A stretch of DNA of 34,823 bases, from NCBI GenBank assembly GCA_002011495.1, contig MTNR01000021.1, positions 1 to 34,823 of the forward strand. Reading direction: 5' to 3'. Position 1 is the stretch's first letter, and every line of letters begins with the position of its first letter. A program made the position numbers and the translations under genes. Of the stretch, positions 8,127 through 22,958 are shown piece by piece. Below the pieces are notes generated by a model. That model saw only the letters and a program-made list of their open reading frames with translations. It did no database searches and was not told where the DNA came from. This stretch comes from Dehalococcoides sp. JdFR-56 (GTDB lineage: Bacteria; Chloroflexota; Dehalococcoidia; Dehalococcoidales; RBG-16-60-22).

Positions 8127-8834
8127 ATGGATATACTACCTCTTATATCCAGCATTGTCGCCCTCATCTTTGCCCTGACCGTTCTTGACCAGTTCTTTGC
8201 CCGGAGAAAGCCCTACCAGCTTGTATGGTCGCTCGGGCTGTTCATGTACTTCATCAGCACCGGCACCGAGTTCTGGACTGGCACCTGGGGGCTAAATCAA
8301 GTAGTCTACCGTCTCTGGTACCTCATCGGGGCGATATTCGTTGCCGCTTACCTCGGGATGGGCACCATTTATCTCTTGGCGCCGCGCCGTGTGGCGCACA
8401 TCATCATGGCGGTTTTGCTCATCGCCTCGGTGTATGCCGCCTTCAAGGTCTTCACCGTCAGCATTGACTTGAGCACTTTGGACCATCTTTCCGGACGGGC
8501 CATGCCCTTGGGGGTGCGGCTGCTTACCCCCTTCTTCAATACCTTCGGCACAGTGGCGCTGGTGGGAGGGGCCATCTACAGCGCTGTGGTTTACTGGCGG
8601 CACCGGCTCATGCCGCACCGGGTGGTTTCCAACATATTGATTGCGGTGGGAGCGCTGCTGCCGGCGTTTGGTGGCATCCACATCCGGCTGGGTGGGGGCA
8701 TCCAGCTCTTCTACCTCTTCGAGTTATTGGGGATTATCATCATCTTCATTGGCTTTTTGCGCAGCCGGGAAGTCTTTGGTTTCTACCGTGTTCCCCTGAT
8801 TCATGGCTTCAAGAAGGTGACGCAGCCTTATTGA
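8127..8834 (+). CDS. Polytopic (about 7 TM) membrane protein of unknown function, first gene of cytochrome cluster
   Basis: Successive hydrophobic helices: MDILPLISSIVALIFALTVLDQFFARRKP...LVWSLGLFMYFISTGTEF...; directly upstream of the multihaem cytochrome genes, same strand. Confidence 0.7.
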   Translation: MDILPLISSIVALIFALTVLDQFFARRKPYQLVWSLGLFMYFISTGTEFWTGTWGLNQVVYRLWYLIGAIFVAAYLGMGTIYLLAPRRVAHIIMAVLLIASVYAAFKVFTVSIDLSTLDHLSGRAMPLGVRLLTPFFNTFGTVALVGGAIYSAVVYWRHRLMPHRVVSNILIAVGALLPAFGGIHIRLGGGIQLFYLFELLGIIIIFIGFLRSREVFGFYRVPLIHGFKKVTQPY

Positions 8835-8853: not shown

Positions 8854-9783
8854 GTGGATAAGAGAAGGAGGGAGGCAAGTTTGAGAGGTTTGGCCTTATC
8901 GCTGGCGGCGGGTTTCGCCTCGGCCGTGGTGATGCTGGCCTTCAGTGGCGGTCAAATCTATGCTTTGGATGAGAACAACTGTCTCTCCTGTCATGGCAAC
9001 CCGGAGCTGACCAAGACCAACGGGGAGGGGAAAGAGGTCTCCCTGTACGTGAGTGAGGAGGCGGTGAATACTGCTGCCCACCGTTTTATTGACTGCACCA
9101 CCTGCCATACTGCCCAGCCCCATCAGGTCAACACCCCGCTCACCAAGCTATCTCTGGCGCAGAAGTGTGGCACCTGTCATCAGTACCAGTATAAGCTGCA
9201 TCTCCAGAGTGTCCACGGTCAGCAGTTGGCCCAGGGTAACCCTGATGTGGCCACCTGTGTTGACTGCCACAGCCCGACGGGCAACCCCCACAGCGTCATC
9301 CGGGTGCTGGAATATAGCGCCCCGGCTTACAAGAAGAACATCGCCCAGACCTGCGCCAAGTGCCATGATAACGAGGAGTTGATGGCCAGCTACGGCATTG
9401 TGGAGAAGGTGTATGAATCCTACATGCGCAGCTTTCACGGCAAGGCGATACAGCTGGGCACCTACGAGATAACCCAGCTGGACAAGGCGACCTGTACCAA
9501 TTGTCACGGCTATCACGATATCAAGAGCACGCGCGACCCCACCTCTCCGGTCTCCGGAGTGCAAAATCTGGCCAAAACCTGTGAGCAGTGCCACCCCGGC
9601 GCTGGGGTGGAGTTTGCCCGCGGCTTCCTTGGCCATAAAGAGGCATCGCCAGAGAATATTCCGGCGGCCCATTACACGGAGGTGTTCTTCACCATCCTGC
9701 TGACGGTGGTGGTGGTGGCTGGCGCCTTCGTGGTCGTCACTGCCGTGGTTCGGTTTGCCATCAACCGATGGAGGGAGGAATAG
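8854..9783 (+). CDS. Membrane-anchored multihaem cytochrome c (7 CXXCH)
   Basis: GTG start; signal/TM; CLSCH, CTTCH, CGTCH, CVDCH, CAKCH, CTNCH, CEQCH; C-terminal TM helix VFFTILLTVVVVAGAFVVVTAVVRF. Confidence 0.92.
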   Translation: MDKRRREASLRGLALSLAAGFASAVVMLAFSGGQIYALDENNCLSCHGNPELTKTNGEGKEVSLYVSEEAVNTAAHRFIDCTTCHTAQPHQVNTPLTKLSLAQKCGTCHQYQYKLHLQSVHGQQLAQGNPDVATCVDCHSPTGNPHSVIRVLEYSAPAYKKNIAQTCAKCHDNEELMASYGIVEKVYESYMRSFHGKAIQLGTYEITQLDKATCTNCHGYHDIKSTRDPTSPVSGVQNLAKTCEQCHPGAGVEFARGFLGHKEASPENIPAAHYTEVFFTILLTVVVVAGAFVVVTAVVRFAINRWREE

Positions 9784-9784
9784 C

Positions 9785-10519
9785 ATGGCCACAGTAGCTA
9801 GGATTATCTCGGCAGAAGGCGCTCAGGAGGAGGTCATCACCCGTTTTGACATCCACCAGATAATCCAGCATGCTGGACTGATGGTGAGCTTCATCCTGCT
9901 GGCGGTTACCGGGCTGCCTTTGAAGTTCCCTGACTGGGCGGTCAGCCAGTGGTGGGCGGGTGTCTGGGGAGGTATTGAGACCCTGCGCGCCACGCACCAC
10001 TTTGCCGCCTGGATGATGGGCGCCGTCGCCCTTTACCACGCCCTCTATATCCTGTATTCCGTCCTCATCTTGAAAAAGCCTTTCCCGGTGAAGATGCTTC
10101 CCAGCTGGCGGGACTTCATCGTCTTCTTCCAGGAGCTGGGGTATTTTCTGGGATTGAGGAAGGAAAGGCCCCTGGTTGACCGCTTCCACTGGAGGGAGAA
10201 GTTTGACTACTGGGCGATTTTCTGGGGGATGCCGGTGATGGGAATCTCAGGCTTCATCATGATGTATCCGGTCTGGGCCACCAAGTTTCTCCCCGGGTGG
10301 GTGGTCCCGGCTGCCCTGGTAGCCCACAGCGATGAGGCGATGCTGGCCCTGATCTGGATTTTCATGGTGCATATTTTCTTCAACCATTTTGCCCCCGGGG
10401 TATTTCCCTTGAACACCTCCATTTTCACCGGCAAGGTGAGCCGGGAGCGATACCGCCGGGAGCACCCCCTTGAGTATGAGAGACTAACGGGAACCGATGA
10501 GAGAAAGGAGGCGGAATGA
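9785..10519 (+). CDS. Cytochrome b-type membrane subunit (formate dehydrogenase gamma/cytochrome b561-like)
   Basis: Several TM helices with conserved histidines (FDIHQIIQHAGLMVSFILLAVTGLPLKF, ATHHFAAWMM, AHSDEAMLALIWIFMVHIFFNHF). ATG 9785, in frame with ORF 9755. Confidence 0.82.
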   Translation: MATVARIISAEGAQEEVITRFDIHQIIQHAGLMVSFILLAVTGLPLKFPDWAVSQWWAGVWGGIETLRATHHFAAWMMGAVALYHALYILYSVLILKKPFPVKMLPSWRDFIVFFQELGYFLGLRKERPLVDRFHWREKFDYWAIFWGMPVMGISGFIMMYPVWATKFLPGWVVPAALVAHSDEAMLALIWIFMVHIFFNHFAPGVFPLNTSIFTGKVSRERYRREHPLEYERLTGTDERKEAE

Positions 10520-10746: not shown

Positions 10747-11868
10747 ATGCAGATGAACTACCGGAGACATCGCGAGAAATTGCTTTTTCTTATGTTCGCT
10801 GGGGCCATCGGCATCATACTGCTGGTCATCGGTGGCTATCAGCTGATTGAGTTTATGGATTCCACCTCTTTCTGCGGGCGGCTGTGCCATGAGGTGATGT
10901 ACCCGGAATACACCGCCTATCAGGCATCACCTCACTCCCGGGTGGCCTGCACGGAATGCCATGTTGGCTCGGGGGCTGACTATCTGGTCAAGTCCAAAAT
11001 CAGCGGCATACCGCTCATCTTCACCACCATCGCCGGCAACTATGACCGCCCCATTCCCACCCCGGTGGAGAATCTCCGCCCAGCCCGTGAGACCTGTGAG
11101 CAGTGCCATCGGCCGGAGAGGTTTGCCGGTGACCTGGTTCGCGTCCATACCACCTACGCCGCCGATGAGACCAATACCGAGAAGGTTGATACCCGCATCC
11201 TCCGGGTTGGTGGTGGGGAGTCTGAGGTCGCCCAGGATATTCACTGGCATATCGCGGCCAAGGTCTGGTATCTCCCCATTGATAAGAAGCGGCAGGAAAT
11301 AGCTTGGGTCGGCGTTGAGGATGAGGCTGGTGGCCTCATAGAATACGTTGACCCGGATAAGGTGGCGGAGGTCACCCCGCAGCGCCTCGCCGAGAAGAAA
11401 CGCCTGATGGACTGCGTGGACTGCCACAACCGGGCGACGCATATCTTCCGCTCGCCGGAGGAGCTCATTGACATGGCGCTTGCCCAGGGTAAGATAGACA
11501 AAACTCTCCCCTACATCAAGAAACTGGGGCTGGAAGCCCTGGACCCGCCCAATCCAAGCTTAGAGCAGGCCTTCACCAAGGTGGAGGCGCTTGAAGAATT
11601 CTACCGCACTTCCTATCCGCAGGTTTACCAGGAGAGGAGGGAGGCCATTGATAAGGCGATAGAGGAGCTCAAGGAGATCGCCCGGCTCACCACCTTCCCC
11701 AAGATGAAGGTAACCTGGAAAACCTACATTGATAACCTGGGGCACCAGGAATCTCCGGGGTGTTTTCGCTGCCATGGCAAGCTGGTGGCAGCCGCCGATG
11801 ACCAGGAGGGCGAGGTCATTGATGCCGATTGTCAGCTATGCCATTACTTCGAGCTCCAGCAAAAATAG
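10747..11868 (+). CDS. NapC/NirT-type membrane-anchored multihaem cytochrome (5 CXXCH + 1 CX3CH)
   Basis: N-terminal TM then FCGRLCHEVMYPEYTAYQASPHSRVACTECHVG; CEQCH, CVDCH, CFRCH, CQLCH. Confidence 0.88.
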   Translation: MQMNYRRHREKLLFLMFAGAIGIILLVIGGYQLIEFMDSTSFCGRLCHEVMYPEYTAYQASPHSRVACTECHVGSGADYLVKSKISGIPLIFTTIAGNYDRPIPTPVENLRPARETCEQCHRPERFAGDLVRVHTTYAADETNTEKVDTRILRVGGGESEVAQDIHWHIAAKVWYLPIDKKRQEIAWVGVEDEAGGLIEYVDPDKVAEVTPQRLAEKKRLMDCVDCHNRATHIFRSPEELIDMALAQGKIDKTLPYIKKLGLEALDPPNPSLEQAFTKVEALEEFYRTSYPQVYQERREAIDKAIEELKEIARLTTFPKMKVTWKTYIDNLGHQESPGCFRCHGKLVAAADDQEGEVIDADCQLCHYFELQQK

Positions 11869-11925: not shown

Positions 11926-11985
11926 GTTAGTCTACCCTTTAGGTTATGTAGGCACAGGCGATAAGAAAAAGAAAGGAGGGATGGT

Positions 11986-13233
11986 ATGAGAAGAAAGCTC
12001 ATCTGGGTGGCGTTGCCAATAATAATATTGGTAGCGCTGCTCGCTGCTTGCCAAGGTCCACCTGGTCCTCAGGGTCCGGCAGGTCCCGCAGGCCCGGCAG
12101 GCCCACAAGGTCCGGCAGGCCCGCAAGGCCCACCTGGTCCACAAGGTCCGGCAGGTCCCGCAGGCCCAGCAGGTCCGGCAGGCTCGGCGGCTGAGATTAG
12201 CGCCGAATATGTCACCTCTAAGGTCTGTGCTGCTTGCCATACTGAGGAAGCGGAGGAGGTTGGCAAATCCGGGCATGCTTACAAGCTGAACCCGGTGATA
12301 AATGGCCAACCGCCGAAGTATCCTTTCTCCGAGGTACCGAATCCACCCGAAGGCTATACCTGGGATGATATCACCTACGTTATCGGTGGCTATGGATGGA
12401 AGGCTCGCTTCATTGACAAGCAGGGCTACATTATCACCGGCGCTGACGAGAGTGCCACCACGCAGTATAACTTCGCCAATCCGGTGGTAGGCAAGGAGGC
12501 TGGCTGGGTGGGGTATCATGCTGGTGAAAAAGAGAAGCCGTATAACTGCGGACGCTGTCATACCACCGGCTACAAACCAGACGGGCATCAGGATGGTTTG
12601 CCCGGCATCGTTGGCACCTGGGCTGAGCCGGGGATTCAGTGCGAAGCCTGCCATGGTCCGGGTGGTAATCACGTGAACGACCCCTATGGCGTGGCCATGA
12701 AGATAGACCGCAGCTCGGCGATGTGTGGTGAATGTCACTCCCGGGGCGCGGTGGAGACCATTGACGCCAAGGGCGGGTTTATCAAGCATCATGAGCAGTA
12801 TGAGGAGCTTCTCCAGTCCAAGCATCTGGCTCTGAGCTGCGTTGACTGCCATGACCCGCACCAGGGTGTCATCCAGGCGCGCAAGACTGGCGAGGCCACC
12901 GTGCGCATCGAGTGTGAGAGCTGCCACTTCCAGGAGGCCAGATACCAGAAGTCGGCGGCGATGAAGGCATCGGTGGATTGCATTGACTGCCATATGCCTC
13001 GCATCGTCAAGAGTGCCTGGGGTGATGCCGAAGCTTATACTGGGGACATCCGGTCTCACCTCTTCGCTATTGACCCCGAGGCCACGGCGCAGTTCTCGGA
13101 GGATGGCAAGAAAGCCATCTCTCAGATCACGCTGGACTTCGCCTGCAAGTCCTGCCATCGCAGTGGCGGAACCGCCACGGTGAAGACGGATGCAGAGCTG
13201 AAGAGCGAGGCCATCGGCTATCACCAGAGATAG
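11986..13233 (+). CDS. Octaheme c-type cytochrome lipoprotein with collagen-like (GXY) stalk
   Basis: Lipobox LLAAC, then 15 Gly-X-Y triplets ([12 protein letters not shown]...), then CAACH, CGRCH, CEACH, CGECH, CVDCH, CESCH, CIDCH, CKSCH. Confidence 0.92.
12055..12189 (+). repeat. Collagen-like GXY-encoding tandem repeat (15 triplets)
   Basis: GGT/GGC-CCN-NNN 9-nt units encoding [12 protein letters not shown]. Confidence 0.93.
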
Positions 13234-13348
13234 ACGCGTATCAGCTAGATACGGTAAAATTAAATAGGGTGATGGCGGAAGGCAAAAAGGCAGTCTCATC
13301 CGCAGTGCTCTTTGGCAGGAGGAAATAGGGGAGCGGTAAGCTCCTTTA

Positions 13349-13423: not shown

Positions 13424-13804
13424 TTGAGGAGCAAAATTACACTGTTACTGGTAGCGGCGCTGCTGGTTATAGTGCCCTTGCTCGCAGCTTGTGGTGGTGA
13501 GGAGGCAGCTCCGGCGCCAGCGCCAAGTCCAGCCCCGGCACCAAGCCCAGCTCCGGCACCGGCGCCAAGCCCAACGCCGACGCCAACCCCGACCCCAACA
13601 CCGACGCCAACGCCGACACCAACACCAACTCCTACCCCGTCACCAGCGCCAGCAGCAGGGCCACCTGCCGTGCCGCATACTCTGGAAGGGCGTGACAATT
13701 GTCTTATGTGTCACGAGGCTGGGATTGGTGGTGCCGGCGTGATCCCCGAGGACCACGCTGGGCGCACCAACGAACAGTGCACTACCTGCCATACGCCAGC
13801 CTAA
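13424..13804 (+). CDS. Small diheme cytochrome lipoprotein with Pro/Thr/Ala-rich stalk
   Basis: TTG start; LLAAC lipobox; (PA/PS/PT)n linker; NCLMCHEAG and QCTTCHTPA. Confidence 0.85.
13503..13672 (+). repeat. Low-complexity tract encoding (PA)n/(PT)n stalk
   Basis: Repeated CCNRCN hexamers (ccaacgccgacg...) encoding PAPAPS...PTPTPTPT. Confidence 0.9.
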
Positions 13805-13871: not shown

Positions 13872-14267
13872 ATGTTGAGGAAGAAAAAATTCCTAGTGGG
13901 TGGTCTTGTTGTTTTCCTCGCCCTGGGCTATCTGATCTATACCGGTTTTCAGAGTTCGGCCACCTATTATTATGAGGTGAGCGAACTTCTGACGCGGGGA
14001 GATTCAGTCTATGGCGAGAATGTGCGGGTGCGTGGGGAGGTTGCTCCCGGCTCGGTGGAGCGGGAGTCTCAGGGGACGGTTCTCCGGTTCATCATTACCG
14101 ATATGGAGGGGGAGCAGAGCTTGCCGGTGGTCTATCAAGGGGTTGTCCCTGACACCTTCAAGGTGGGTGTTGAGGTGGTGGTTGAGGGTCAACTTGACTC
14201 AGATGGGGTCTTTCAGGCCCACACCCTCATGCCGAAGTGTCCCTCCAGATATGTGCCCCAAGAGTAG
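13872..14267 (+). CDS. ccmE: Cytochrome c maturation haem chaperone CcmE, CxxxY variant
   Basis: N-terminal TM, OB-fold GENVRVRGEVAPGSVERESQGTVLRFIITD...VVVEGQLDSDGVFQAHTLMPKCPSRYVPQE; Cys at 14238-14240 in place of the usual haem-binding His. Confidence 0.93.
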   Translation: MLRKKKFLVGGLVVFLALGYLIYTGFQSSATYYYEVSELLTRGDSVYGENVRVRGEVAPGSVERESQGTVLRFIITDMEGEQSLPVVYQGVVPDTFKVGVEVVVEGQLDSDGVFQAHTLMPKCPSRYVPQE

Positions 14268-14291: not shown

Positions 14292-16268
14292 ATGGCAGAT
14301 ATAGGCTATATTGCACAGTTTCTGGCGCTGGTGGTCTCGGTTTATGCGGCGGGTGCCTTTATCCTTGGCTGGAGGGGAAAACATCCCGCCCTGCTCAGCA
14401 GTGCTAGGAATGGTTTACTGGCGTCATGCGGGCTGCTTACCATATCAGTGGCCTCGCTGGTCTATGCTCTAGTTAGCCATGACTTCCAGATAGAGTACGT
14501 TTACCAGTACACCAGCCGGGATCTGGCTTTAACCTACCGCCTGAGCGCTTTATGGGCGGGCAATGATGGTTCATTGCTCTTCTGGGCATGGCTTCTTTCC
14601 GTTCTGGGCGCGGCGGTGATACTCCAGAAACGAGAGGTGGGCAAGGAGCTGGTGCCCTATGCCGCCGCAATTATCGGGGTAACCCAGACTTTCTTCATTC
14701 TTCTGCTGCTTACCATAGCCAATCCTTTCCAGAAGCTTCCCCAGGTCCCGGCCGATGGCATGGGGCTTAACCCGATGCTGGAAAATCCCGGCATGTTTTT
14801 CCATCCCCCCCTTCTCCTCGCCGGCTATGTTGGCTTTACCGTTCCTTTCGCCTTTGCCATGGCGGCCCTGCTCTCCAGGAGGCTCGGCGACGCCTGGCTG
14901 ATAGTGGTCAGGCGATGGACGCTGCTGGCTTGGCTCTCCCTTGGCCTGGGCAACCTTTTGGGCGCCTGGTGGGCATACGTTGAGCTTGGCTGGGGAGGCT
15001 ACTGGGCCTGGGACCCAGTGGAGAACGCTGGCCTGATGCCTTGGCTGGTGGCCACCGCCTTTCTTCACTCTATCATGATGCAGAGGCGGCGGGGGATACT
15101 CAAGGTTTGGAATATGGTGCTGATAATACTGACCTTCGTCCTGGCAATACTTGGCACTTTCCTCACCCGGAGCGGTGTTCTTGCTTCGGTTCATACCTTT
15201 GCCGAGTCCCCTTTATTGGGTGCCTCGTTCCTGGCCTTTATCGGTATTACCATCGTCAGTTCGCTGGGCTTGCTCTATTACCGCAGTGAAGAGCTGAAAA
15301 GCGAAGCGGAGATGGAGTCACTTGTCTCCAGGGAGAGCACCTTCCTGCTCAATAATTTGCTCCTGGTCGGTGCTGCCTTCACCATCTTTCTGGGAACGTT
15401 CTTCCCGGTGATATCAGAGGCGGTGCGTGGGGTCAAGGTTAGCGTCGGCCCGCCCTTCTATAACCAGGTGAATGTGCCTATTTTCCTGGCCATCATTCTC
15501 CTCGCCGGGATTTGCACTCTCATTGGCTGGCGGCGAGCCTCCCTCAGGAATCTGGTACAACATTTCCTCTGGCCGCTGGCGACGGCGCTGATTTTGGGGA
15601 TAGTTCTCTTCATCCTGGGGATAAGGCAATGGCTTGCCCTTGTCGCCCTCCCCCTGTGTGGCTTCGTGCTCTTTACCATCCTCTACGAATGGTGGCGAGG
15701 GACGCGGGCTCGCCACCGGATGAGGAGCGAGAACTATCTGAAGGCGTTCTGGGGCTTGATCATGACCAATCGGCCCCGCTATGGCGGCTACATTGTTCAC
15801 ATCGGCGTCATCATCATGGCCGTGGGAATCATCGGCTCATCCCTCTACGGAGTGGAGAAGGAGGCCACCCTTACCCAGGGTGAGTCAATGAGCATTGAGG
15901 ACTACACCCTCACCTATGAGAATATGGACTTTTACGAGACCGAGAGCAAGGCGGTGGTTACCGCCACCCTTCTGGTCTCCAATCAAGGGAAATTGCTCGG
16001 CAGGTTGCTGCCGGAGAAATACTTTCACCGCAGCTTTGAGCAGCCGGTGACCGAGGTGGCCATTCGCAGCACCCTCGTTGAGGACCTGTATGTCATCCTG
16101 GTTGGCTGGGATGAAGATGGCACCACCGCCTTTAAGGTGCTGGTCAACCCGCTGGTTAACTGGATCTGGATTGGGGGAGTCGTCCTGGTTTTGGGAGGGC
16201 TTATTGCTTTCTGGCCTGAGTGGCGCAGGCAGCCAGTTCCACAGTCGGCTGGTAAAAGGGGGGAGTGA
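14292..16268 (+). CDS. ccmF: Cytochrome c haem lyase subunit CcmF
   Basis: WWD domain WGGYWAWDPVENAGLMPWL, LTRSGVLASVHTFAESP, many TM helices, downstream of ccmE. Confidence 0.96.
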   Translation: MADIGYIAQFLALVVSVYAAGAFILGWRGKHPALLSSARNGLLASCGLLTISVASLVYALVSHDFQIEYVYQYTSRDLALTYRLSALWAGNDGSLLFWAWLLSVLGAAVILQKREVGKELVPYAAAIIGVTQTFFILLLLTIANPFQKLPQVPADGMGLNPMLENPGMFFHPPLLLAGYVGFTVPFAFAMAALLSRRLGDAWLIVVRRWTLLAWLSLGLGNLLGAWWAYVELGWGGYWAWDPVENAGLMPWLVATAFLHSIMMQRRRGILKVWNMVLIILTFVLAILGTFLTRSGVLASVHTFAESPLLGASFLAFIGITIVSSLGLLYYRSEELKSEAEMESLVSRESTFLLNNLLLVGAAFTIFLGTFFPVISEAVRGVKVSVGPPFYNQVNVPIFLAIILLAGICTLIGWRRASLRNLVQHFLWPLATALILGIVLFILGIRQWLALVALPLCGFVLFTILYEWWRGTRARHRMRSENYLKAFWGLIMTNRPRYGGYIVHIGVIIMAVGIIGSSLYGVEKEATLTQGESMSIEDYTLTYENMDFYETESKAVVTATLLVSNQGKLLGRLLPEKYFHRSFEQPVTEVAIRSTLVEDLYVILVGWDEDGTTAFKVLVNPLVNWIWIGGVVLVLGGLIAFWPEWRRQPVPQSAGKRGE

Positions 16269-16759
16269 ATATGGGATTTAGGGAGAAGCTCGTCGTCATC
16301 CTGCTCATCGCCCTGCTTGCTCTCATACCCTCTCGAGCTAGCGCGCAGACGGTGATGGGCATCTCTAAAAAGCTTATCTGCCAGTGCGGCTGCACCTTGG
16401 TTCTGGCCAACTGTACGCATAGTGAGTGCGGCTCCCGGGAGGCGATGACCGCCCTGATAAGGGATAAAATCAGCCAGGGATGGTCAGAGGAGGAGATTAT
16501 CCAGTTCTTTGTGGCCCAATATGGGGAGCAGGTGCTGGCATCTCCCCCCAAGCGGGGCTTTAACCTGATGGCCTGGATAACCCCGTTTGCCGTGATACTG
16601 GCCGGAGCTGGGGTGATCTACCTGGCCATAAAGAAATGGACAAAACGGGGCAGGCAAGCTCAGATTGTGGGCGCGCCTGAGAGTGAGGAAGAGGAGGAGA
16701 AATACCGGCAGCAGCTGGAAGAGGAGCTGAAAAAGTTCGCCGAGAGGAGTTTCCGGTGA
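16265..16759 (+). CDS. ccmH: CcmH/CycL/NrfF-family cytochrome c biogenesis protein, with CQCGC active-site variant
   Basis: Signal peptide, GISKKLICQCGCTLVLANCTHSECGSREAMTALIRDKISQGWSEEEIIQFFVAQYGEQVLASPP, TM; overlaps ccmF stop. Confidence 0.9.
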   Translation: MNMGFREKLVVILLIALLALIPSRASAQTVMGISKKLICQCGCTLVLANCTHSECGSREAMTALIRDKISQGWSEEEIIQFFVAQYGEQVLASPPKRGFNLMAWITPFAVILAGAGVIYLAIKKWTKRGRQAQIVGAPESEEEEEKYRQQLEEELKKFAERSFR

Positions 16760-20663: not shown

Positions 20664-22958
20664 ATGAAATTGCTGAGCGACCTCACACTGAGGAAGAGGA
20701 TCATCATCCTCACCGTGCTGGCACTGCTCTTGGGTGCTGGACTGTTCAGTTTTCTAGGGATGCGGGCAGTGGACCAGGCAACCGAAACCATGCTGCAGGA
20801 TAGACTAACCACCGCCCGTCTCATGGCGGACTACATCGATGATGCCCTGGGGCGTGCTCTCGCCGAGCTGGTACGCTGCGCGCAGGCGGTGCAGGACGGC
20901 CAAGCCAGCAGCTTCGGAGCGCAGATAGCCGCCCTTGAGGACGCCTTCTTTTTCCTCTCCTTCTATATTCATGATATTTATCTGCTCGATGGCCGGGGGC
21001 GGATTACCTGGAGCAAATCAGGAGAGGCGGCTATCCTGGGGACGGATATCTCCTTCTATCCCACCATCAGCCAGGCATTAAGCAGTGGTGAGCCTGGCAT
21101 ATCCGGGCTGGTCTCGGCACCGGTGAGCGATACCCCAGTTATCTTCCTCGCCAGCCCCACCGGAGAGGGGGGAGAGCCGGGCAGGGGGGTGCTGGTGGTG
21201 GCCATAGATATCTCCCGGTCAAGCATCGGCGGTTTCATCCGGCCGATAAGATTGGGTGAGACGGGCTACGTTGAGATCGTGGACCAGAACGGGATTGTGC
21301 TCGCCCGCACCGAGCCCGGGCCGAAGCTAGGTGCCTTTACCAAGAGCGACCACAGCGGGCGCTTTGCCGCCCTGATTGCCACAGGGAAGCCAACGCGGGG
21401 GCTGTGTCACTCCTGCCATATACCGGGGCAGAGGGTGGAGAGAAGGGATGTATTGGCCTTCGTGCCGCTCTCCCAGGCCCAGTGGGGGGTTGTCATCCGG
21501 CAGTCGGAAGAGGAGGCGCTGGCGCCCATCCGCGAGCTGCGCCAGAGCCTGCTGCTCTTCGGGGCGGGGTCAATGGTCATCATCTTTCTCTTCGTGCTGG
21601 TAACCACACGGGATGTGGCCAGCCGCATCTGGGGGTTGACCGCGGCCTCCCGAAGGATAGCCGAGGGGGATTTGAGTAGCCCCATCGCCATCTCAGGGAA
21701 GGATGAAGTCGGCGTTTTGGCCCAGACCTTTGACGAGATGCGGCTCAAGCTGCAGACGTCTTACGGAGCGCTGGAGCAGAAGACCAAGGAGCTGGCCTCG
21801 CTGCTTTCGGTGTCTGAGATTCTGACCTCGCTGCCTGACCTCTCCAACCTGGATACCGCGCTCGGCAGCGCCCTAGACAAGACCTTGGAGATAATGCGGC
21901 GAGACGTTGGTGGCATACTCCTCTGGGATGAGGAGAGGGAGGTGCTGCGTTACCGCGTGTATCGGGGGCTCTCTGAGGAGTACGTGCGGCGGGTATCCTG
22001 CCGCCTGGGCGAGGGCATTGCCGGCAGGGTGGCGCAAAGTGGCGAGCCGATTATCCTGGCTGACATCTCCACCGACCCTCGGGCAGCTCACCCTGATCTC
22101 ATCAGTGTCGAAGGACTGCGGGCATTTGCCAGCGTCCCCATTCGCTTCAAGGACAAAGTGCTGGGCGTGCTCAATATCGCCAGCCGTGAGACGCGCCAAT
22201 TTTCGGCTGAGGATGTGAGGCTTCTCGAGGGCATTGCCGTGCAGATTGCCACGGCGATTGAAAACGCCAGATTGCACCAGGAGGTGCAGAACAAGGAGAA
22301 GGTTCGCGGGGAGCTATTGAGCGAGATATTCTCCATCCAGGAGGGGGAGCGCAAGCGGATCGCCCGCGAGCTGCACGACGAGACAAGTCAGGTTCTGGCC
22401 AGCCTCACCGCCAGCCTTCAGGCTGCCTCAAATACCCTGCCCACCAACGTGGATAAGGCCAAAGCTTTGCTGGAGAAAGCCCAGAGGCTGTCCATCAGCA
22501 TCCTTGATGAGATACACCGGCTGATCTACGAGCTCCGCCCCACGCTGCTTGATGACCTGGGGCTGGTGGCGGCAACACGGTGGCTGGTGGATAATATTCT
22601 GGGGGATGCTGGGGTTGCGGTTGATTTCAAGACCTCGGGGCGGGAGAGGAGGCTGCCGCCCCAGCTGGAGACCACCCTGTTTCGGGTTATCCAGGAGGCG
22701 GTTTACAACATCAGCCGTCACGCGCAGGCCAAGAACGCCCAGATAACGCTGCACTTCAAGAGGGGGAAGGTTCGGGTTGGCATTAAGGATGACGGCGTTG
22801 GTTTTGATGTCAAGGAGGCGATAAGCTCCAAGGAAAGGCCACGAGGGCTGGGGCTGCTGGGGATGAAGGAGAGGATAGAGCTGATCCGGGGTAGTTTGAG
22901 CATCTCCTCGCGCCCCGGCAGTGGCACCGAAATCAATATTGAGATACCGACGGGTTAG
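20664..22958 (+). CDS. Sensor histidine kinase: TM - Cache-like sensor with CXXCH - TM - HAMP - GAF - HisKA_3 - HATPase_c
   Basis: TM1 IIILTVLALLLGAGLFSFLGM; extracytoplasmic domain with GLCHSCHIPGQRVERRDVLAFVPL; TM2 SLLLFGAGSMVIIFLFVLV; HAMP; GAF RLGEGIAGRVAQSGEPIILADI; ERKRIARELHDETSQVLASL. Confidence 0.93.
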   Translation: MKLLSDLTLRKRIIILTVLALLLGAGLFSFLGMRAVDQATETMLQDRLTTARLMADYIDDALGRALAELVRCAQAVQDGQASSFGAQIAALEDAFFFLSFYIHDIYLLDGRGRITWSKSGEAAILGTDISFYPTISQALSSGEPGISGLVSAPVSDTPVIFLASPTGEGGEPGRGVLVVAIDISRSSIGGFIRPIRLGETGYVEIVDQNGIVLARTEPGPKLGAFTKSDHSGRFAALIATGKPTRGLCHSCHIPGQRVERRDVLAFVPLSQAQWGVVIRQSEEEALAPIRELRQSLLLFGAGSMVIIFLFVLVTTRDVASRIWGLTAASRRIAEGDLSSPIAISGKDEVGVLAQTFDEMRLKLQTSYGALEQKTKELASLLSVSEILTSLPDLSNLDTALGSALDKTLEIMRRDVGGILLWDEEREVLRYRVYRGLSEEYVRRVSCRLGEGIAGRVAQSGEPIILADISTDPRAAHPDLISVEGLRAFASVPIRFKDKVLGVLNIASRETRQFSAEDVRLLEGIAVQIATAIENARLHQEVQNKEKVRGELLSEIFSIQEGERKRIARELHDETSQVLASLTASLQAASNTLPTNVDKAKALLEKAQRLSISILDEIHRLIYELRPTLLDDLGLVAATRWLVDNILGDAGVAVDFKTSGRERRLPPQLETTLFRVIQEAVYNISRHAQAKNAQITLHFKRGKVRVGIKDDGVGFDVKEAISSKERPRGLGLLGMKERIELIRGSLSISSRPGSGTEINIEIPTG
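21405..21419 (+). other. CXXCH (CHSCH) candidate haem c attachment motif within sensor domain
   Basis: TGT CAC TCC TGC CAT in frame with the 20664 ORF, between TM1 and TM2. Confidence 0.75.

Follow-up and report, generated by a model that had tools for sequence, protein, structure and literature searches.

A lipid-anchored octahaem cytochrome with a collagen-like stalk in a respiratory operon of Dehalococcoides sp. JdFR-56

Organisation of the cytochrome locus

The window analysed here is the whole stretch of 34,823 nucleotides of contig MTNR01000021.1 (positions 1 to 34,823, forward strand) from Dehalococcoides sp. JdFR-56. The ORF located at 11986-13233 of the forward strand encodes a protein of 415 aa and is preceded by a strong Shine-Dalgarno sequence (AGGAGG, 11974..11979, +) situated 6 nt upstream of the ATG. 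The translation begins with a type II signal peptide (11986..12051, +), which contains a single hydrophobic segment (residues 5-23) and ends in the lipobox LAAC (residues 19-22; the codon of Cys22 is 12049-12051). By inspection, the basic RRK n-region, the hydrophobic core and LAAC follow the pattern of bacterial lipoproteins. Only a single Gln separates Cys22 from the collagen-like stalk (12055..12189, +), a tract of 45 residues preceded by 23 residues and composed of 15 uninterrupted Gly-X-Y triplets (14 GP[PQA] and one GSA). The remainder of the gene (12190..13230, +) codes for an octahaem cytochrome core with CXXCH motifs at residues 81, 188, 219, 247, 285, 310, 332 and 387, so that the 17 Cys of the protein correspond to 16 haem Cys and the lipobox Cys. 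The order of lipobox Cys, 15 triplets and eight haem motifs given in a preliminary description of this DNA is thus exact. The Pfam Collagen model (PF01391) matched the tract with 32.8 bits against a cut-off of 27.2 (E 5.9e-8) and was followed along the protein by MtrC/MtrF-II/IV, C7, c3 and C554 cytochrome models. In the 1.80 Mb genome (93% complete), no other collagen gene was found; the second match came from this very DNA, read on the opposite strand. A 451-aa antisense ORF (11944-13299, -) overlapping the octahaem gene is a product of base composition and not a gene.

Upstream, the same strand carries a gene for a membrane protein with no Pfam match and 5 hydrophobic segments (8127..8834), followed by three genes assigned by Pfam and by their recurrence beside octahaem genes: a seven-haem C7-like cytochrome with a C-terminal membrane anchor (8854..9783), likely the quinol-oxidising partner; a cytochrome b561/formate dehydrogenase gamma-like membrane subunit (9785..10519; also TIGRFAM); and a NapC/NrfH-type membrane-anchored cytochrome with 5 CXXCH and 1 CX3CH motifs (10747..11868; also profile search). 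Homologues of these C7-like, cytochrome b and NrfH-like proteins were found beside octahaem genes in more than 20 of the fetched loci. The pair of seven-haem cytochrome and cytochrome b resembles CbcA/CbcB of Geobacter; since this likeness concerns architecture only, the names were not adopted for the neighbours. CbcBA is an inner-membrane quinone oxidoreductase of low-potential extracellular respiration (PMC12307469, PMC12977616).

Downstream, also on the forward strand, translation and motif count revealed a dihaem lipoprotein (13424..13804), the Pro-Ala/Pro-Thr stalk of which is nearly equal in length to the collagen stalk. It is followed by genes for the haem chaperone CcmE (13872..14267; Pfam, profile search), the haem lyase CcmF (14292..16268; TIGR00353, 2.7e-146) and CcmH (16265..16759; Pfam, profile search), and further downstream by ABC-transporter and CcmB/CcmC-like genes, named from their operon position and from homologues in relatives. 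A sensor histidine kinase (20664-22958) adjoins the Ccm cluster and bears one CXXCH motif (CHSCH) in its extracytoplasmic sensor part. The other cytochrome cluster of the genome also encodes a sensor-like protein with such a motif (CQTCH; L152:11983-13468), and the two are possibly haem-c redox sensors for both cytochrome operons. In addition, the other cluster (G000, contig C2) encodes a lipoprotein of PgcA-like design (L152:4752-6123), in which 15 haems are combined with a long Pro-Ala/Pro-Thr stalk and the first haem unit resembles the dihaem unit of the window gene 13424-13804.

Fold of the octahaem head and its nearest known systems

An AlphaFold2 model of the octahaem protein, built from 46 relatives, reached a mean pLDDT of 88, with a confidence of only ~49-72 within the tract. 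A Foldseek comparison with solved structures returned only three significant matches, namely MccA (5.7e-12), OcwA (8.9e-11) and OmhA (1.9e-10). The best sequence match in the PDB, found by phmmer, was OcwA (6i5b, 1.9e-13) over core residues 5-194, and the c554-like haems 1-4 with an inserted beta region, as seen in OcwA, were recovered by phmmer and Foldseek alike. In Thermincola potens, a host that also lacks an outer membrane, OcwA serves as terminal reductase at the cell surface and occurs as monomer/dimer (PMC6703420); its haems 2 and 5 are open, and among its substrates are nitrite, hydroxylamine and iron oxides (PMC6703420, PMC7096707). Nevertheless, it differs from the window protein in having nine haems instead of eight and a C-terminal three-helix bundle, which is absent from our model, where only short helices are found past residue 340. 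Moreover, mature OcwA begins with EKPAD after its signal peptide, hence without a lipobox Cys, and no collagen stalk has been reported for it.

MccA, the sulfite reductase of Wolinella succinogenes (PDB 4rkm), is the best fold match and likewise has eight haems. Unlike the window protein, it comprises ~660 residues, and its copper site uses an extra Cys pair outside the haem motifs; the octahaem protein contains no Cys beyond the haem motifs and the lipobox. MccA is reportedly a homotrimer with 24 haems. The CX15CH haem motif that is a feature of MccA (PMC7096707) is also missing, all eight motifs being CXXCH. OmhA (PDB 6qvm), which shares the fold, is a multihaem protein of the cell surface; its host, the Gram-positive metal reducer Carboxydothermus ferrireducens, has an S-layer. 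The protein has been recovered from cell and magnetite surfaces (PMC7829351), but it carries eleven haems, is predicted to be secreted and has no reported lipobox stalk. The decahaem lipoproteins of the OmcA/MtrC family (TIGR03507) also serve surface electron transfer; they differ in their ten haems, overall architecture and outer membrane. The eight-haem window protein gave no TIGR03507 match at E<=0.01, and the only trace of this family in its core is a partial hit to PF22113 (MtrC/MtrF domain II/IV, 42 bits).

In the alignment of relatives, about seven His outside the CXXCH motifs are conserved (97, 229, 268/269, 280, 292, 358, 413). Since there are eight haems, one of them may be open, and alignment with OcwA indicates haem 2 as the likely candidate.

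As regards the stalk, the closest known analogue in function is provided by the PTX repeats of PgcA from Geobacter sulfurreducens, a lipid-anchored protein acting on Fe(III) oxides in which a Pro-rich repetitive stalk bears haem domains, although these repeats are PTX/PAX rather than Gly-X-Y and the haems lie in three single-haem segments (PMC5732950). Bacterial collagens of the BclA/Scl type also use a collagen-like stalk to keep a head domain at a distance from the surface of a cell or spore, but they are haem-free, have other heads and usually much longer tracts (PMC8968730).

Distribution of the stalk

A scan of GTDB genomes with the octahaem core yielded 154 relatives, 80 loci of which were fetched and their N-termini read. 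In the tree of the 80 core sequences, the clade of the window protein comprises 52 rows (48 Chloroflexota-titled, 3 Actinomycetota-titled and the window itself). A tract of 5-16 Gly-X-Y triplets follows the lipobox Cys in 46 of these, including four (L047, L059, L060, L071) whose contigs have a frameshift, a stop or an ambiguous base between tract and core. Outside the clade, the tract is absent from all 28 rows; these relatives do without a stalk and show in its place a plain signal peptide, a short ordinary linker or, in Gemmatimonadota, Ig-like domains. Six trait changes are needed on the tree, which fits one gain and five losses, gain and loss being indistinguishable. In an independent sample of four more Chloroflexota relatives, three have the tract and the fourth has another N-terminal extension. 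The relatives in which Ig-like domains take the place of the tract are L088, L092, L100, L117, L118 and L149.

The preliminary description held that orthologues without the tract would count against a functional stalk. Such clade members do exist, six among the 52, so the objection holds in part, though four of the six (L049, L055, L057, L060) lie directly upstream of a tandem copy that bears the tract. In these tandem arrangements the first gene is stalk-less and the second has a 14-triplet stalk; they could be pairs of a membrane-near and a membrane-distant cytochrome. The tract-less copies of G033 and G034, two genomes of the same order, were considered as losses in direct orthologues and rejected as such: they group outside the clade with Symbiobacterium- and Acidobacteria-titled copies and hence are not direct orthologues, although their operon context is common to that of the window.

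Two further observations concern the octahaem family itself. A genome of the window's family (G089) holds a decayed, truncated octahaem remnant of 70% identity (L007:3168-3651) with lost haem motifs (CVTCP, GKSCH). In seven loci from non-Chloroflexota genomes (L081, L083, L094, L098, L099, L101, L122), octahaem modules are fused or repeated within one polypeptide, giving 14-28 haems, which represents a possible covalent alternative to trimerisation.

Collagen stalks are also found on other heads. A six-haem lipoprotein cytochrome unrelated to the octahaem protein carries 9-10 collagen triplets (L040, 3121+; L042, 2571+; L078:6200-7231; L134); in two genomes of the same order its gene closes the Ccm operon, while the genome of L134 is Chlorobiota-titled. 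A lipobox-adjacent collagen tract is also present on a two-haem protein (L128), and five fetched members of the decahaem OmcA/MtrC family (L137, L138, L139, L142, L145) have 7-10 Gly-X-Y triplets immediately behind the lipobox Cys. In Chloroflexota, haem-free heads bear such stalks as well; two lipoproteins (L012, L041) combine 26-36 collagen triplets with a head of beta-propeller-like repeats and no haem. Given its presence on unrelated two-, six- and ten-haem and haem-free heads, the collagen stalk is a shuffled module, with the octahaem core as one of several redox heads. More broadly, the collagen triple helix may serve surface multihaem cytochromes in general as a stalk module that has escaped notice, bundling three heads (here 24 haems) and setting their height on unrelated 2-, 6-, 8- and 10-haem cytochromes of several phyla; this proposal is put forward tentatively and at somewhat less than even odds.

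Selection on the glycine register

To compare codons, 17 non-overlapping pairs of tract-bearing relatives were used. Each linker was taken in full, between the lipobox Cys and the core, regardless of Gly register, since picking tracts by their register biases Gly counts, and a codon was classed as Gly if it encoded Gly in either member of the pair (214 compared). These linker Gly codons showed 122 synonymous versus 14 non-synonymous differences, the other linker codons 153 versus 177, and the Gly codons of the core 258 versus 123, the neutral expectation for GGN codons being ~2 replacements per synonymous change. Hence, Gly is constrained more tightly in the stalk than in the haem core, while the X/Y positions change freely between Pro, Ala, Gln, Glu, Val and other residues. 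Alignment gaps in the linker were multiples of three residues in 7 of 13 cases, numbers too small to carry independent weight. The octahaem stalk is thus an old feature that is maintained by selection.

That the tract is merely low-complexity DNA, grown by replication slippage and structurally meaningless, would agree with its repetitive DNA and with the frequency of collagen-like tracts in Chloroflexota (145/400 genomes). We consider this hardly credible: the nine-base units are only ~73% alike and their third bases are scrambled, which rules out a recent DNA repeat and is a kind of synonymous scrambling that slippage would not leave, the tract is kept in most of the clade, and its Gly codon changes are almost all synonymous. 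The same conservation and codon evidence rules out the assembly artefact that had been named beforehand as a reason to dismiss the repeat. A structural alternative has more in its favour, namely that the tract is a single-chain extended (polyproline-II-like) spacer, like the stalk of the dihaem neighbour and the PTX repeats of PgcA, and that the cytochrome is monomeric. Indeed, the (PA)n/(PT)n stalk encoded by the next gene (13424-13804) is about as long, the haems of PgcA are separated by PTX/PAX repeats (PMC5732950), OcwA is a monomer/dimer (PMC6703420), and the replacement of the tract by Ig-like domains or short linkers in some relatives suggests that spacing alone may suffice. Yet Gly at every third residue, which a triple helix demands, is no requirement of a plain or flexible spacer, and Gly is stricter here than both the other linker residues and the core Gly, so that this alternative is judged unlikely, albeit one to be taken seriously. 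Selection on the register therefore speaks well for a triple helix without proving it, and the stalk would most likely be homotrimeric. Towards a trimer point the Gly-only constraint and the reported homotrimeric state of MccA, a relative in fold; the state of OcwA points the other way. Against a triple helix it may be held that the tract is short and without hydroxyproline and that it is modelled at low AlphaFold confidence, and against the reading as a whole that cytochromes outside the clade manage without a stalk. Bacterial collagens form triple helices without hydroxyproline (PMC8968730), usually with a trimerisation domain.

The head, too, may be read differently, as a membrane-proximal reductase of a soluble oxyanion (of the nitrite, hydroxylamine, sulfite or tetrathionate type), the stalk giving it freedom of movement only. 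The related fold includes small-molecule reductases, which speaks against an extracellular role: its neighbour MccA reduces sulfite, OcwA also reduces nitrite and hydroxylamine (PMC7096707), and the count of conserved His suggests one open haem. On the other hand, OcwA and OmhA, which among proteins of known function are closest to the window protein in sequence, are surface cytochromes, and the Cys pair of the MccA copper site cannot exist in a protein all 17 Cys of which are accounted for. We find such a reductase unlikely. What the evidence supports, taken together, is that the protein is a lipoprotein whose collagen register is under selection, that its octahaem core has the fold of surface reductases and that its gene belongs to a respiratory operon. 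The reading preferred here, with a probability of about 0.6, places the cytochrome in the MccA/OcwA/OmhA superfamily as an octahaem reductase or electron relay, exposed at the cell surface, anchored by lipid and carried on a collagen-like stalk above a single membrane.

Cell envelope and proposed function

Searches of the genome (93% complete) for PBP transpeptidase, FtsW/RodA and Omp85 returned no match, most control genomes having matched as expected, which argues for a single membrane without outer membrane or normal peptidoglycan. Dehalococcoides has a single membrane, an S-layer and no normal peptidoglycan, and an S-layer over the single membrane is probable here as well. With these genes absent, what the stalk bridges is probably an S-layer gap and not a peptidoglycan wall. 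Of the monoderm cell wall invoked in the preliminary description, the single membrane is consistent with the lack of Omp85, whereas the wall finds no counterpart in the absence of PBP transpeptidase and FtsW/RodA. As a triple helix, 15 triplets (45 residues) of 0.86 nm each would measure ~13 nm, which would suit such a gap. In G033 and G034, the octahaem protein has no tract and the dihaem protein a short linker; from these parallel lengths in three genomes it may be conjectured that the octahaem and dihaem stalks are matched to envelope thickness.

We infer that the octahaem head would be held ~13 nm over the cell membrane by its lipid-anchored stalk. Electrons would pass from menaquinol through the seven-haem cytochrome/cytochrome b pair and the NrfH-like cytochrome to the octahaem head, and from there to an extracellular acceptor, for which a mineral, humic matter, another surface acceptor or, at an open haem, a small oxyanion may be considered.

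The superfamily of the head and the fold of the stalk are each known; their combination has apparently gone undescribed. A full-text literature search, with most subscription papers outside its coverage, found no paper joining collagen with multihaem or c-type cytochromes, and a review of prokaryotic collagens mentions neither cytochromes nor Chloroflexi (PMC8968730). The combination is thus apparently unreported, although automatic database annotation may already list both domains. The earlier remark that collagen-stalk multihaem cytochromes are not known as an established class agrees with this search; the window protein is nonetheless not unique, as the design recurs in most members of its clade and on unrelated cytochromes.

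Electron transport past the envelope of single-membrane bacteria is poorly known except in a few Firmicutes, and a collagen rod that is anchored by lipid and can be adjusted in length would solve the problem by simple structural means. Its predictions, namely a trimer, a defined height and a stalk length fitted to envelope thickness, are testable, and the succession of lipobox, Gly-X-Y and CXXCH offers a sequence signature for surface reductases in metagenomes. Redox proteins would thereby join the known cargoes of bacterial collagens.
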